Assembly: GCA_016191165.1 (NCBI GenBank)
Contig: JACPPF010000070.1
Coordinates: 1 to 32,995, forward strand
Direction of reading: 5' to 3'
Source of the DNA: Planctomycetota bacterium
Lineage (GTDB): Bacteria > Planctomycetota > Planctomycetia > Gemmatales > Gemmataceae
Length of the DNA: 32,995 nucleotides
Position numbers and translations under genes: made by a program. Below are positions 2,251 through 11,400 of this stretch, piece after piece. The notes under the pieces were generated by a model. That model searched no databases, was not told where the DNA came from, and worked only from the letters and a program-made list of their open reading frames with translations. Positions within the stretch are counted from its first letter, which is position 1, and every line of letters starts with the position of its first letter.

Positions 2251-4257
2251 TCACTCGTTGATGGCCATGGGCCGATCGTCGCGGTTTTTCCACAGGCGTT
2301 GAAAATCGCCTTCCCGGATGCGCCCTTGTTTGTCAATGAGCACGTGGGGCGGAAAGTCTTGCGGCGCGGATTTTGGCAAATCCGCCCACGTTTGCCGGGC
2401 GCGCTGACTCGCGGCGGCGCGCTGGTCCGGCGGGCCGACGAAGTTATAGGTGAATTCTCGGAAACCTGGCAAGCGTTTCAAGGACCGCTCGGCGATATAG
2501 CGAACCGCGTCGTAGCGATCGTCCAGGAGCTGGGCGAGATACGGCGCCTGCCAGTGGTTTCCCGATGCCGCGAGGGCGTCGTCCCAGCCGAAACTCCAGG
2601 CCATGAGCGCGCGCTGGCCGGCGTCGCCGCGTAGGGTCCACAGGATGCTGGCGGCGATCTGTTGCTCATCCTTGGCGAGTTTGGGGGCGGGGATCTTGTA
2701 CCACGATGCCAGGCGCTGCGCGGTCCAGGCCAGCGTCTTGTCGAGGTGGCACTGGTTGCACGCGTTGGGCCGGCCCGTCGCCAGACTCGTCTTCACGCTC
2801 GGCGAATCAATCTGGTGGCTGCGAATCGCCTTCATGATGCCATACGTGGTGAACGGCATGTGGCAATTGTAACACAGGCTGCCCGTCGAATCCCCGGCGT
2901 GATGGGTATGCCGGGTGAGCCGATCCGCGTTCTTGAATTGTTCGTGGCATTGCAAACAGGCGCGGTTGCCTTCCATGCCAAACTTGAGCTGATCGTCGGC
3001 CCATTCCTTGCGTTTGCGGGGATCGTCCTTCGCCTGGTGCATCTGATGGCATGACAGGCACGACATCTTGCCGCGCTGGAAGCAGGGCGTGTCGAGCAGC
3101 CCGTTGTACTCGCGGCCCGAGCAGCGGATCATGCCGTCGGACCAGAAGCTGCCGTCCTCGGCCGGATTGGGCGCGTCCCTGGGACGATCCGGTGGCATCA
3201 GATCGAGCCGGCCGCGCATGATGAACTGAATCGGGTCAGCGTGCAGGTTCCCGCCAGGGCGATAGGTGTAGCCCTTCTGCCGCCAGTTCTTTTCCGCCTC
3301 GTCGGTGCGATGAAAGATGACCGCGTGACATTGGCCACAAACCTCGGAGGAGCGGTCGTGCGGCAAGCGCGCGGGGTTGACGATGGTGAGGTCAGGTTCG
3401 TCAGCGAGGTGTTGCCGATAGCGGCGTAGTGGATCTTGATTGACGCGCACATGTTCCGCGCCGGGCCCGTGACAGGCCTCGCAGGAGATGCCGAACTCGA
3501 CGGCCTGCGTACCGGTCGCGTTGGGGCTGCGGCTTTCCGCTTGATCGAGGAGTGGTTCGGAGCGTCCGTGCGTGGCGTGGCATTTGATGCAAACCGTGCT
3601 CCAGCGGCCGAAGTCGCCCTTGAGGACCGCCAGCTCCGGGCGTTCTTGCAGGCACATCGGGTTGATGTAGCCGGAATGGCGCGGAATCCATTTCTTGTCG
3701 GCCTTGAGGTACATATAGGGTAAAATCATTAGCTCTCGCGCCTTGGAGGTGGACAGCCAGTAGGCTTGCCGATTGTGGGAACCCGTGGTCATCACGACCT
3801 GATACGTTTCGGAGAAATCGGGATTGCGCATGTCCAGCTCGGCGAGAAATTGCTTACCCTGGCGGAAAAGGCGGACATGCAGGTCCTTGCCGGTGAGCTC
3901 GACGTTGTTGAAATCGCCGATGACGCTTTCATCGCTGGCGACCTGCGTCATCGTCCGGTGATAAGAATCGTGCCAGGTGGAATGGTTATGGGGATGGCAG
4001 TTGCGGCAGGCGCCGGAGCCGACGTAGTTTCCGGTCGGTCGCTGGATCGGGCGATTGGTGGCGAAAGCCTCCCTGGTGACGGCCGGACCGGTCCACAGAA
4101 ACGCAGCGGCGACGATCAGGATCGACACACCCAGCCACAGCGCCGCGATGGCGCCGGCGGTTCGGCGCGTGCCCAGCCGGAAACGCCCCGACAGCGCCAG
4201 GATCGGACCCAGCGCCGCACAGAAAAGAACCGTGCAGAGGAACAACTCAAGGATCAT
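2251..4257 (-). CDS. Octaheme c-type cytochrome with membrane anchor and HEAT-like tail
   Basis: The product has 668 residues. The ATG at 4257 follows GGAGGAGGCTGCCC, a strong ribosome-binding site, so the frame extending to 4302 is not used. Two hydrophobic helices (about 1-24 and 36-57) precede a haem-binding region facing the periplasm. Eight CxxCH motifs are present: CRNCH (residues 84-88), CIKCH, CEACH, CGQCH, CLSCH, CLQCH, CYNCH and CNQCH. The first, with a nearby W..SYH, resembles cytochrome c554-type domains. The C-terminal part carries a HEAT-like stretch (DDRYDAVRYIAERSL). The likely role is periplasmic electron transfer; the substrate is unknown. It heads a two-gene unit with the membrane protein at 1782-2228. 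Confidence 0.9.
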   Translation of the reverse strand: MILELFLCTVLFCAALGPILALSGRFRLGTRRTAGAIAALWLGVSILIVAAAFLWTGPAVTREAFATNRPIQRPTGNYVGSGACRNCHPHNHSTWHDSYHRTMTQVASDESVIGDFNNVELTGKDLHVRLFRQGKQFLAELDMRNPDFSETYQVVMTTGSHNRQAYWLSTSKARELMILPYMYLKADKKWIPRHSGYINPMCLQERPELAVLKGDFGRWSTVCIKCHATHGRSEPLLDQAESRSPNATGTQAVEFGISCEACHGPGAEHVRVNQDPLRRYRQHLADEPDLTIVNPARLPHDRSSEVCGQCHAVIFHRTDEAEKNWRQKGYTYRPGGNLHADPIQFIMRGRLDLMPPDRPRDAPNPAEDGSFWSDGMIRCSGREYNGLLDTPCFQRGKMSCLSCHQMHQAKDDPRKRKEWADDQLKFGMEGNRACLQCHEQFKNADRLTRHTHHAGDSTGSLCYNCHMPFTTYGIMKAIRSHQIDSPSVKTSLATGRPNACNQCHLDKTLAWTAQRLASWYKIPAPKLAKDEQQIAASILWTLRGDAGQRALMAWSFGWDDALAASGNHWQAPYLAQLLDDRYDAVRYIAERSLKRLPGFREFTYNFVGPPDQRAAASQRARQTWADLPKSAPQDFPPHVLIDKQGRIREGDFQRLWKNRDDRPMAINE

Positions 4258-4390
4258 GGGCAGCCTCCTCCGAAGAGGCGAGGGACCGTCGGGGTTCGGC
4301 AATCGGCCGTGCCATCCATTAATGAATACGCTTCAGCACGACGATTGGTGCGCCCGTCGTGGTTCATTCGGATGCCCGGTATCCGTCCAG

Positions 4391-7227: not shown

Positions 7228-7950
7228 CTATCCCGCCATCGCCAGCTTGCGCGGCGCCGGTTTCGTGGCTTCGGCGCGGGTCCGGGCGGCGTCGATGAGG
7301 GCGCGGAAGACCTGGATGTCGAGCCCCGATGCGGACGCCGAGGCCGGCTGCCACTGCACGCCGACGCAGAACCAGGAATCGCTGGTGTGCTCGATCGCCT
7401 CGATCACGTTGTCCAGCGCGATCCCCGTGGCGGCGAAACCCTTGGCCACGCGCTGAATCGCCTGGCGATGTTCGCTGTTGACGACGATTTCGCCCTCGCC
7501 GAAGATGGTCGCCATCTGGGTGTTGGGCAGCACGTTGATCGCGTGCCGCAGGCCAGGTTCGGGCGGATGGCGATGTTGCAGCGCTTCAGGCAGTTCGCGC
7601 GCCAGGTCGCCATAGTTCAGACCGCCGAACGCGGAGTTCATCGCGAGCAAGGCCTGATCAATGGCCAGGAGCGGGAAGCGATGCTCGCGGCACCACAGGC
7701 ACAGCGATTCGATATCGCCTAGCTTGCCGGGCGTGGAGTTGTCGAAGTTGCAGGCGACGACGCCGTTGAAACCGTCGAGGATTTCATCCCACGGTTCGCC
7801 GCCGCAAGCGGGCTTGAGAAAGACGGGTTCCGCGCCGGCCGCGGTCATGGTGCCGTGATAGCCCGCGGACCACAGCCCGACACCTCGGCCTGTGACCTTC
7901 ACTTCGGAGCCATACACCGCAATACGCAAGGGTTGATCGGAAGAGAACAC
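7228..7950 (-). CDS. Class I glutamine-amidotransferase-like (peptidase C26) pseudoenzyme
   Basis: The product has 240 residues from a GTG at 7950, preceded by AAGGAG with a 7-base spacer; this length suits the PuuD-like gamma-glutamyl-GABA hydrolase family. The fold is recognisable: PLLAIDQALLAMNSAFGG lines up with the nucleophile elbow of PuuD (IFAICRGLQ...GG), VNSEHRQA with VNSLHGQ, and VGVQWQPA with LGVQWHPE. All three catalytic positions differ: Cys to Asp98, His to Gln201, Glu to Ala203. The oxyanion-strand glycines are also absent. The gene is otherwise intact, with a good ribosome-binding site, so it is probably a non-catalytic binding or regulatory protein rather than a hydrolase. 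The RidA-like gene is divergent from it. Confidence 0.82.
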   Translation of the reverse strand: MFSSDQPLRIAVYGSEVKVTGRGVGLWSAGYHGTMTAAGAEPVFLKPACGGEPWDEILDGFNGVVACNFDNSTPGKLGDIESLCLWCREHRFPLLAIDQALLAMNSAFGGLNYGDLARELPEALQHRHPPEPGLRHAINVLPNTQMATIFGEGEIVVNSEHRQAIQRVAKGFAATGIALDNVIEAIEHTSDSWFCVGVQWQPASASASGLDIQVFRALIDAARTRAEATKPAPRKLAMAG

Positions 7951-8026
7951 GGAAGGACTCCTTTCCTTTTGGGAAGCAAACAACGCCAACCTTGGCTTCT
8001 TCCGCCGTGGAAGATAAGGTGGAGAA

Positions 8027-8032
8027 ATTATA
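8027..8032 (-). promoter_or_regulatory. Candidate -10 box (TATAAT) for the amidotransferase homologue
   Basis: Read on the minus strand this is a perfect TATAAT, about 77 bases before the GTG start. The -35 region 17-18 bases upstream (GGATTT or TGGATT) is weak. Confidence 0.35.
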
Positions 8033-8217
8033 CAGGAGCAGGCCCAGAGAAATCCAGCATATTCCAGGAAATATTTTCCCCGGGCGCGAAGGCCGCTGGT
8101 GAACGCAGCTCGTTGTTCGTCCAACATGGCCGGGCGGCCCACGAAAACCTATGGTGAAGTCATGGCCACGCCCCCGGGCCAGAGCGTTCCCGCAGATTTC
8201 ATTGAAAGGGCTACCGC

Positions 8218-8655
8218 ATGGGCGCCGAACAAAAGGCGAAAGACCTGGGCATCGCGTTCCCCAAGAAGGAAAAGGGCTACCTCAACCTTTGCATCCGCGT
8301 CGGGAACCTGCTATTTACGTCGGGCCATGTCAGCGACATGAAGGGCAAGCTCGGCGCTGGCTTGACGGTCGAACAGGGCGTGCAGGCGGCGCGCGAATGT
8401 GCCGTCAAGATTTTGCAATCGGTCCACGACCTGCACGGCACGCTCGACGGTTTGCGCGTCGTCAAGCTCCTGGGCTGTGTCAACTCGACGCCCGACTTCA
8501 CCGATCAACATCTGGTCGTCAACGGCGCGTCGGATCTGTTCCACGAACTCTTCGGCAAGGACGAACTTGGCTACCACGCCCGCAGCGCGCTTGGTTTTGT
8601 TTCGCTGCCGATCGGCTCCGCGGTCGAGGTTGAGGCGATCTTTGAAGTCGTGTAA
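8218..8655 (+). CDS. RidA (YjgF/YER057c/UK114) family protein
   Basis: The product has 145 residues, slightly longer than E. coli RidA. Family landmarks are LLFTSGHVSD (about 31-40), LLGCVNSTPDFTDQH (about 84-98) and the C-terminal HARSALGFVSLPIGSAVEVEAIFEV. Arg122 in ARSAL matches the arginine that binds the substrate carboxylate in RidA, and the acidic residues of VEVEA are kept. The family hydrolyses reactive enamine/imine intermediates made by PLP enzymes and acts in the cytoplasm as a trimer. The ATG at 8218 follows AAAGGG. The gene is divergent from the amidotransferase homologue across about 270 bases. It belongs to a longer RidA subgroup, so the exact substrate is unknown. Confidence 0.9.
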   Translation: MGAEQKAKDLGIAFPKKEKGYLNLCIRVGNLLFTSGHVSDMKGKLGAGLTVEQGVQAARECAVKILQSVHDLHGTLDGLRVVKLLGCVNSTPDFTDQHLVVNGASDLFHELFGKDELGYHARSALGFVSLPIGSAVEVEAIFEVV

Positions 8656-8674: not shown

Positions 8675-10405
8675 TCAATTCGCGCAATAATCCTTGCGCC
8701 CGAAAACCCAGAACGAATGGGCCGTGCAAAGGCCAGCAACGCTCAAGAAAATCGTTTGCTGGGTCAACGCCATGGAAGGCGCCAGCATCGGGCTGTATCC
8801 CTCGAAGCGACTCATTGGCGCCCCTTCGCCGACCAGGGAGAAATAATACGCCAGCGCGATCCACGCCGGCTCACCCGCCGCGACATGGGCGATGGCAACC
8901 AGTCCGACAAAAGCCACCACCGCGACATTCGCGAACAACACGCGCCGGCACAGGACCGACAGCCAAAGCCCCAGGCACCCCAGCATCAAAAGCAACGGCC
9001 ACGGCAGCACGATGAGTAACAGGAACGCCTTCCAATCGTAAATCCCGCACCCGAACCCGACCGCCGCGCCCAGGTAGCTTACCGCCAGGATCGGCCAGTT
9101 TCGCCACCAGGGCCCAAGCCATTTGGCAAAGAGGATGGCGCGCCGATCGTCGGGGATACTCAGGAGAAACGTCAGCGTACCATGTTCGCGTTCCCCGGCG
9201 ACGGTCATGGTCATCTGGAACACGGTGACCAAAAAGTAGGCGGCAAGCGCGATCAAGTAGGTTGTGAAGGTGAGGGTATACGCCAATCCACGCATGTTAT
9301 TTCTTCGTATGTCATCCAGCGGGAACAGATTGATCAGGTGATAGCTCGCGGACACGGCAGCCACGAAGCCGACGCCGTAGAGCAGCCAGCGCACGCTCAG
9401 GGAGTGCGTCGAGCCGTCCTTGAGGCATTCCTTCCAGAAAAGGGCATTGCCGGTCACCGGCCAGGCCCAGGGATGAATGCGTGACTGGGCCTGCCCGCGT
9501 TTGCCGGTTCTTTTGGAGATGGGTCGATTGTCGGTCAAAGCCAGCGACCCGGTGGCCTTGCGCGTTTGCTTGCGTTCCTCGCGGCGCAGGAATTCCATGC
9601 GAGCGATTGCACTGCGCAATGCAACCACCGTCAGGCCGGCATGAAGCAGCACCAACGGAATGAGCGAGCTGAAATAGAGTGGCCCATCCACGGGACCGAG
9701 ACCACCTGCTGCCCTGTTGGCGGCTTCGCCAAACCAGGGCAATGCCAGGGCCGCGACGATACAGAAGAAACCCAACAGGGCCATCCACCCGTAGGAACTG
9801 CTGATGGCGTTGAAAACGCTGTCGGAACGTGCCGAAACCCAGATGCACACGCTGCCCGCGCTGATAAGCATCAGAAACAAGTTGATCTCGTGATAGACGA
9901 GCAAGGATGCATCCACATTGCCCCAAAGATGCATGAACGCCAATAGGGGAAAGGTCGCCAGGGCGAATGCGCCGACGTGCACAAGCCGAGCGGCAAACTT
10001 GCCCAGCACCAGTTCACGGTCGGTCAGATGGGTGAGCGTGAGCGATTCGAGGGTCTGGTTTTCTTTTTCCTCGGCAATTGCGCTGGCGACATAGACGGGC
10101 AAAAGTGCAAGAATCAAGAGGTCCTGGAGAATAATGAGGAGATACGCGAAGTTGCTCGCACGCCGCGCAAACTCGGCGGGCTGGCTGAAATGGACGCTTT
10201 GCCCCTGCGTGCGATCCATGAGCAACATGCTGACGAGAACCACGGTCAGGAAAAGTACACGGGCCAGCGTCGGCCAACCCTTGCGCGCCAGGCGGACGAT
10301 GTCGTACTGGAAATGAGGCCCCAACCAGCCGCCGCGCAATGGGGCTAATACGGCGGAAAAAAGGTATTTGCCCGGCATCGCGGTAGTCCTGTCGAAATGG
10401 CTCAT
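8675..10405 (-). CDS. ABC-2 type transporter permease with two ABC-2 modules
   Basis: The product has 576 residues with about twelve hydrophobic helices. Two internal segments match the ABC-2 permease signature: AIAEEKENQTLESLTLTHL followed by VLGKF at about residues 110-145, and VAGEREHGTLTFLLSIP followed by LFAKW in the second half. A basic linker (about 280-310) separates the two modules, so one chain may supply both permease halves. No ATP-binding subunit is encoded nearby. The ATG at 10405 overlaps the stop of the Rpn-type nuclease gene as ATGA, which implies translational coupling. The transported substrate cannot be inferred. Confidence 0.82.
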   Translation of the reverse strand: MSHFDRTTAMPGKYLFSAVLAPLRGGWLGPHFQYDIVRLARKGWPTLARVLFLTVVLVSMLLMDRTQGQSVHFSQPAEFARRASNFAYLLIILQDLLILALLPVYVASAIAEEKENQTLESLTLTHLTDRELVLGKFAARLVHVGAFALATFPLLAFMHLWGNVDASLLVYHEINLFLMLISAGSVCIWVSARSDSVFNAISSSYGWMALLGFFCIVAALALPWFGEAANRAAGGLGPVDGPLYFSSLIPLVLLHAGLTVVALRSAIARMEFLRREERKQTRKATGSLALTDNRPISKRTGKRGQAQSRIHPWAWPVTGNALFWKECLKDGSTHSLSVRWLLYGVGFVAAVSASYHLINLFPLDDIRRNNMRGLAYTLTFTTYLIALAAYFLVTVFQMTMTVAGEREHGTLTFLLSIPDDRRAILFAKWLGPWWRNWPILAVSYLGAAVGFGCGIYDWKAFLLLIVLPWPLLLMLGCLGLWLSVLCRRVLFANVAVVAFVGLVAIAHVAAGEPAWIALAYYFSLVGEGAPMSRFEGYSPMLAPSMALTQQTIFLSVAGLCTAHSFWVFGRKDYCAN

Positions 10406-11400
10406 CCCGTTCGTTGCCGCAGTTGTTCTTGCAAATCGGCAGCCAGGCGCGTCAAGTCGGCCAACGACAGGTCGGCCAGTTGTTCCGCCGGGGTGACGGC
10501 CTGATTGAGCAATTGCTCGCAGAGGTGGATAATCCCAATCTTCTGGCCTTTTGCCTGGCCTTTTGCCAGGCCTTCTCGCCGTCCTTGTCCTCGTCCTTCT
10601 TGGCGTCCTTCTTCACGTCCTTCTTCACGTCCTTCTTCACGTCCTTCTTCACGTCCTTCTTCACGTCCTTCTTCACGTCCTTCGAGGCGTGCCACCTTCA
10701 TGCCCGTGTTGTAGTCCAGTTGAAACTTTCGCCGCGATTCGTATCGTTCGCGTTCTTCGTCGGTTTGGTTGAGCATTTTCAATTCCTCCACGGCCTGAAG
10801 CACCAGCGGTCTTCTTAGTTGCGCGGGTATCGCGTCCAGGTCAATTTTTGCAGCATTCCGCAAAAAGTAAAGCCAAATGTCCAGATCGTTCGTCAGTTCT
10901 TCCAAACTCTTGTTGAACTTTGGCAGCTCGATGATATGCAGGTCGATGTCGTCAACAAAAGGAAATCGATGTTGCTCTTCCAGGAGGCGAAAATGCAGAT
11001 GATGGTCAGCGGTTTGCGGAAACAGCACGTGGTCCAGGAAGCTGATCGAAATCGTTGGCCTCAGCTCCAGATAGTCCTGGCCTTCCCGGAGTTGTTCCTG
11101 ATGGAGCCGGGACCAATAGTAGAGGATGCGCTTTTCGTAATGCCGAAAGGCGAGCATCTGCATTTCGACGTTGAATAGCCGGCCCGATTGGTCGCGCGCC
11201 TTGATGTCCAGGATGGACAGCTTGTCGTCCAGCGCCTGCTTGGGATTGAATGGATTGAGTAACTCAAGGTCGTCGATCCGGTGTCCGGGGCCCGAATTCA
11301 ACACATTATCCACGATATCGATCAAAATCGGACGGGTGGCGTCGCGCCCAAGAAGATGCTTGAAAGCGTAATCCACCTTGGGATCGATACCGAGCATCAT
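10402..11400 (-). CDS. Rpn/PD-(D/E)XK family nuclease (putative transposase) with GREE repeats
   Basis: The product has 332 residues. The N-terminal part (about 1-110) is the restriction-like nuclease fold of the Rpn/COG5464 family: the start DPKVDYAFKHLLG, then LDIKARDQSGRLFNVEMQ, which holds the Asp and the Glu-x-Gln catalytic positions. The middle region is helical. Residues about 239-275 are a charged array of GREE/GREEG units, followed by glycine/lysine-rich repeats and a helical tail. Family members promote recombination or act as selfish or defence-linked nucleases. Here the gene follows the DUF1501 gene by 29 bases and overlaps the ABC permease by ATGA, so it is embedded in an apparent operon. 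A GGAG ribosome-binding site precedes 11400. Confidence 0.85.
   Translation of the reverse strand: MMLGIDPKVDYAFKHLLGRDATRPILIDIVDNVLNSGPGHRIDDLELLNPFNPKQALDDKLSILDIKARDQSGRLFNVEMQMLAFRHYEKRILYYWSRLHQEQLREGQDYLELRPTISISFLDHVLFPQTADHHLHFRLLEEQHRFPFVDDIDLHIIELPKFNKSLEELTNDLDIWLYFLRNAAKIDLDAIPAQLRRPLVLQAVEELKMLNQTDEERERYESRRKFQLDYNTGMKVARLEGREEGREEGREEGREEGREEGREEGRQEGRGQGRREGLAKGQAKGQKIGIIHLCEQLLNQAVTPAEQLADLSLADLTRLAADLQEQLRQRTG
10605..10682. repeat. 12-bp tandem repeat array inside the Rpn-type gene
   Basis: The unit gtccttcttcac occurs six times without change (10605-10676) and then partly. On the coding (minus) strand it encodes Gly-Arg-Glu-Glu units. The unit is a multiple of three, so copy-number change by slippage would keep the reading frame. 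Confidence 0.85.

Follow-up and report, generated by a model that had tools for sequence, protein, structure and literature searches.

A Gemmataceae protein of the PuuD/SpuA family with an invariant aspartate at the nucleophile position: a maintained lineage of probable pseudo-amidotransferases

The gene at 7228-7950 of the analysed window (the whole stretch of 32,995 nucleotides of contig JACPPF010000070.1, from a planctomycete of the family Gemmataceae) encodes a relative of the PuuD/SpuA-type hydrolases and belongs to a lineage, here called clade D, in which the catalytic triad residues have been lost under purifying selection. Judged from its residue pattern, clade D is probably a neofunctionalised, ligand-binding and non-hydrolytic member of a planctomycete pseudoenzyme lineage that would have arisen in two steps from PuuD/SpuA-type hydrolases. 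The open reading frame is on the minus strand, the original prediction having given no strand, and presents the following features.

7228-7950, minus strand: coding sequence of the clade-D pseudo-amidotransferase, 240 aa (GTG start at 7948-7950, stop at 7228-7230)
7342-7350, minus strand: codons of Gln201-Pro202-Ala203, where the family has the catalytic His-Pro-Glu
7465-7479, minus strand: codons of Asn158-Ser-Glu160-His161-Arg162, the family motif NSxHH being changed to NSEHR
7657-7659, minus strand: codon of Asp98 at the nucleophile-elbow position, which is Cys in active members and Gly in clade G (see below)
7955-7966, minus strand: extended Shine-Dalgarno GGAAAGGAGTCC, kept 5' of the clade-D orthologues
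8027-8032, minus strand: -10 box TATAAT, kept in the clade-D orthologues
near 8054-8058, minus strand: (T)n-CTGG element upstream of TATAAT, conserved in the clade-D orthologues

The window protein passed the curated profile cut-off of the Peptidase C26 / PuuD-SpuA family, with 88.9 bits against Pfam Peptidase_C26 (PF07722; cut-off 20.5, E=5e-25), and scored 33 bits against the PuuD equivalog model NF008471, the cut-off of which is 266 bits. The high-significance structure matches were all C26 proteins, namely Lin1909 (3fij), SpuA (7d4r/7d53/7d50) and PuuD (6vtv). The AlphaFold2 model, obtained with 56 sequences, has a pLDDT of 86 and a pTM of 0.87 and exhibits a predicted nucleophile-elbow geometry, with a strand at 94-97, residue 98 and a helix at 99-107. 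The solved structure closest to this model is SpuA (Z 25.1, 212 residues, 2.5 A), with further matches to Lin1909 (Z 24.7) and PuuD (Z 24.5). As modelled, the window protein has the Peptidase_C26/PuuD-type class I amidotransferase (flavodoxin-like) fold, and the whole fold is common with the PuuD/SpuA gamma-glutamyl-gamma-aminobutyrate (polyamine) hydrolases (6vtv, 7d4r, 3fij; Z about 25, 205-214 residues aligned).

When aligned to SpuA/Lin1909 with HMMER, two profile alignments giving the same columns, D98 stands opposite the Cys of 'GICRG', Q201 opposite SpuA His221, which is mutated in 7d53/7d50, and A203 opposite the catalytic Glu. The original prediction had placed D98, Q201 and A203 against Cys, His and Glu, and these columns were right; the Cys-His-Glu triad of an active gamma-glutamyl hydrolase is absent in the window protein. 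The case raised against it, a triad located elsewhere in the protein, was not encountered: no Cys column reaches 95% in clade D or clade G, the nearest ones being C84 (69%) and C87 (86%) of helix 77-90 in clade D and C195 (74%) in clade G, the latter not conserved in clade D. The triad positions 98, 201 and 203 of the 36 clade-D sequences read DQA in 20, DHA in 7, DHG in 4, DRA in 2, DNT in 2 and DNA in 1. Asp98 is invariant and is the sole fixed triad position, Glu203 is lost in every sequence and residue 201 drifts between Q, H, N and R.

The segment VNSEHRQA had been taken as an intact fold motif, which it is not. Active members and clade G have VNSxHHQA, and the changes of H to R and of x to E are extra clade-D-specific changes inside the former active site, with E160 present in 100% and R162 in 92% of clade D and H162 in 100% of clade G and of the sequences that retain the nucleophile (Cys-type). 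D98, H128 and E160 are fixed anew in clade D (each 100%), H126, R135, H136 and H161 are kept, and Asp71 of the oxyanion loop and Gln102 (+4) are lost. The oxyanion/substrate loop GGxDxxP after the third strand is absent in clade D, and the G63..P93 stretch counts about 31 aa versus 47-48 in clade G and the Cys-type; ~17 residues, with the oxyanion/lid loop among them, are missing. The conservation in clade D is 0.87 at the former active-site positions versus 0.65 in the rest of the protein (Mann-Whitney p=1.6e-5); in the same way, the values in clade G are 0.88 and 0.62.

Compared with PuuD/SpuA, clade D keeps H126, H136, N158-S159, H161, D180, E184, E187, Q199-W200 and P202, whereas it is without the Cys, the Glu and the +4 Gln, presents a relaxed His and an oxyanion/lid loop shorter by ~17 residues, and is without a puu-type operon. 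The ammonia-dependent carbamoyl phosphate synthetase I has a GATase domain without the Cys, and other pseudo-GATases exist too. In that enzyme a class I amidotransferase fold has likewise survived nucleophile loss, but the dead domain is fused to the synthetase, whereas the clade-D protein of 240 aa stands by itself and has had its site rebuilt.

Homologues were searched among relatives, in GTDB genome contigs, in the family Gemmataceae and in the phylum, and their scores formed three clearly distinct groups. In Gemmataceae, the clade-D profile gave 304-408 bits for clade D, about 137-176 bits for clade G, which bears Gly at the nucleophile position, and at most about 107 bits for a third tier, Cys-type where read. 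Clade D was present in 31 of 76 Gemmataceae genomes, many sampled genomes being incomplete MAGs, as one intact copy each with no stops, and was not found in any other family searched. Of the genomes sampled from the class Planctomycetia, nearly all had clade G (252-354 bits, joint profile), and 20 copies read from Planctomycetia families other than Gemmataceae were all GHE. Matches in the other classes of the phylum scored at most 204 bits (joint profile), and the 16 that were read were all Cys-type. An inspection of the three columns in homologues had been proposed with the original prediction; triad states were read in 154 sequences of clade D, clade G and the Cys-type, and this check showed Asp98 to be invariant in clade D.

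In a maximum-likelihood tree of 91 sequences, the Cys-type, G and D sequences each lie on one side of a branch, with a support of 100/97 for G+D and of 100/100 for D, the stem of which is long (1.52). The support for clade-G monophyly is 93/54 only, and clade D could be sister to clade G, with 30-40% identity and neither having the nucleophile, and not nested in it. For the clade-D relatives nearest to the window, pairwise dN/dS (Nei-Gojobori) ranged over 0.16-0.22, and two closer pairs of the clade gave 0.08-0.10; the dN/dS comparison asked of the gene at the outset thus indicates purifying selection within clade D (0.08-0.22). The view of a maintained pseudoenzyme and not of decay is borne out by the 31 intact orthologues, dN/dS, the conserved promoter and ribosome-binding site, the invariant D98 and a conservation that centres on the former active-site motifs.

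The loss of three residues is real; however, a PuuD-like enzyme probably did not lose them all at once, because the class-wide clade G, to which the closest relatives belong, is also without the Cys (changed to Gly) while keeping the His and mostly the Glu. The order Cys to Gly to Asp, with clade D coming from a Gly-bearing ancestor, is the simplest reading and is favoured because each step is a single base change.

The clade-G triad states were GHE in 80, GHQ in 14, AHH in 2, GHH in 1 and GHA in 1, and those of the Cys-type CHE in 20/20. The nucleophile position is Gly, rarely Ala, in clade G, and Cys is absent from clades G and D alike. Asp71 (100%), Gln102 (95%) and H126, H136, H161, H162 and H201 (100%) are kept in clade G; unlike clade D, it thus keeps the loop, Q102, His201 and mostly Glu203. 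R135, E154, W193, L210 and D211 are common to clades G and D, planctomycete-only and not found in the Cys-type. The genome of the window carries its own clade-G gene, next to a gene for AnmK (anhydro-N-acetylmuramic acid kinase), at another locus (L107).

L107:8260-9018 (contig C107): own-genome clade-G gene, Gly-type, with AnmK as neighbour
L107:6843-8063, same strand as the clade-G gene and directly after it: own-genome AnmK gene (PF03702, E 7e-77)

When the clade-G positions were set against the PF03702 matches found in 49 Gemmataceae genomes, the clade-G gene stood directly before AnmK in 31/31 genomes holding both. Clade G is likewise followed by AnmK in the order's second family (L029, L031) and in the class families f6 and f8 (L219, L220, L222), and this was not seen in the f4 loci examined. 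The clade-G gene thus precedes AnmK in Gemmataceae and some other families, whereas the clade-D gene does not: the window gene has Asp98 and no AnmK neighbour, and the own-genome clade-G copy has both the Gly and the AnmK gene. The AnmK synteny suggests a role of clade G in peptidoglycan turnover, perhaps by binding a gamma-glutamyl murein peptide. Clade G is missing in 7 of the 31 clade-D genomes, 5 of which are also without AnmK; clade D is therefore independent of the clade-G/AnmK module. In the Gemmata group, a glutamine synthetase gene is located 5' of clade G (L090, L091, L093, L096, L097, L101, L103, L163, L164), with the gene order GS / pseudo-GATase / AnmK. Multihaem cytochrome paralogues of ~680 aa with 32% identity are encoded at 2251-4302 (minus strand) of the window and at L107:9708-11744 (minus strand), near the own-genome D and G genes; this did not recur in the other compared relatives and was considered a coincidence.

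Open reading frames in the GC-rich flanks were called with a simple codon-position rule. No conserved operon partner of clade D was found, the neighbours varying between the compared relatives. A WD40-protein gene adjoins the clade-D gene in L035, L036, L040, L042 and L043 and lies elsewhere in two more loci; it was rejected as an operon partner, being convergent and adjacent only in the window and these five close relatives. A RidA/YjgF-like gene at 8218-8655 (plus strand) is divergent from the clade-D gene and is not conserved in the compared loci. Further away, 10402-11400 (minus strand) encodes an Rpn/PDDEXK_2 transposase-like nuclease, the C-terminal part of which matches FliH models (NCBIfam) and is probably a coiled-coil tail.

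The strong ribosome-binding site and the TATAAT box noted in the original prediction are both present, and TATAAT, (T)n-CTGG and GGAAAGGAGTCC are all kept in orthologues of 58-81% protein identity. The spacing from (T)n-CTGG to TATAAT is ~19-22 bases (window ~8027-8058), longer than the usual -35 spacing, and the element could be an activator site or part of an unusual promoter. A regulon shared through the promoter or Shine-Dalgarno was considered and rejected: GGAAAGGAGTCC occurs only 2x in the genome, and the other copy precedes an unrelated membrane-protein-like open reading frame.

These data can be arranged in a two-step scheme. The ancestor would be a PuuD/SpuA-type gamma-glutamyl hydrolase. 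A first change, at the root of the class Planctomycetia, would have replaced its nucleophilic Cys by Gly and left the site otherwise intact (clade G); the product may still bind a gamma-glutamyl or amide ligand and would no longer form the glutamyl-thioester. In Gemmataceae, a second copy (clade D) would then have gained Asp at the Cys position and a new charged set, D98, H128, E160 and R162, while the catalytic Glu and the +4 Gln disappeared together with the oxyanion/lid loop and the His was relaxed. Without the oxyanion loop, the Glu and a residue to form the thioester, clade D is not expected to carry out gamma-glutamyl hydrolysis. In the reshaped former active site, the stand-alone, separately transcribed protein would bind a small metabolite, for which a charged amine or amino acid is a candidate, and the signal might be passed on by a binding partner. 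We infer the order of the two steps, the lack of hydrolase activity, the ligand binding and the partner. A ligand-binding regulator or sensor is plausible from the residues present, and in the compared loci no conserved clade-D neighbour points to a regulatory target.

Pseudo-amidotransferase subunits working through partners are known in general, and the nearly invariant SGLDIQVFR and ALQHRHPPE segments of clade D could be an interface. That the protein would be a structural or regulatory subunit acting solely in this way, the old pocket being a mere fold core, is nevertheless unlikely: such a core would hardly account for the charged residues that became fixed in the former active-site motifs, linkage to a partner gene is absent, and clade G is no obligate partner, since 7/31 genomes have clade D without it.

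An enzyme with a new chemistry, using D98 as nucleophile, base or metal ligand together with the invariant H126, H128, H136, E160 and H161, is less likely still. Position 201, the general base His of the family, may be Q, N or R in clade D, from which the oxyanion/lid loop is missing; metal binding is a guess from residue types, and we know of no Asp-nucleophile enzyme of the class I amidotransferase fold. Nevertheless, an invariant elbow Asp with several invariant His/Glu would look just so: residue 98 is Asp in 100% of the 36 sequences while 201 and 203 vary, and three further residues, H128, E160 and R162, have become fixed about the former site, where conservation is concentrated.

Pairs of a pseudoenzyme and an active paralogue are a common arrangement, but it is very improbable that clade D is an inhibitor or decoy of an active PuuD in the same cell. 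A paralogue match at the Cys-type level (>75 bits) was found in only 3/31 clade-D genomes, and the genome of the window itself has two strong C26 matches, its G and D copies, and no Cys-type among them; as such a paralogue is usually absent, clade D is unlikely mainly to regulate one. That the gene is decaying, or that the assembly or the alignment is at fault, is scarcely credible, the gene being intact in 31 independent assemblies with dN/dS of about 0.2 or lower and two profile alignments agreeing on the columns. A ligand-binding, non-hydrolytic protein fits best, because of the invariant charged residues of the old site, the own promoter, the lack of an operon and the usual absence of an active paralogue.

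A partial literature search yielded no account of a planctomycete C26 clade that is without the nucleophile. Clades D and G are likely to be annotated automatically as 'gamma-glutamyl hydrolase' or 'glutamine amidotransferase', an activity that the residues do not support. It is quite unlikely, taken as a whole, that the class-wide nucleophile-less PuuD-like protein is an undescribed part of peptidoglycan recycling (AnmK-adjacent in several families) and, in addition, that the Gemmataceae copy has its invariant Asp in a new active or sensing site; if so, no earlier Asp-centred site would be known for the class I amidotransferase fold. That a whole class has, nearly universally, a protein without the nucleophile, linked to AnmK in part of it, points to a possible role in planctomycete cell-wall metabolism that deserves testing. 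Clade D represents a second, further remodelling of the same site.
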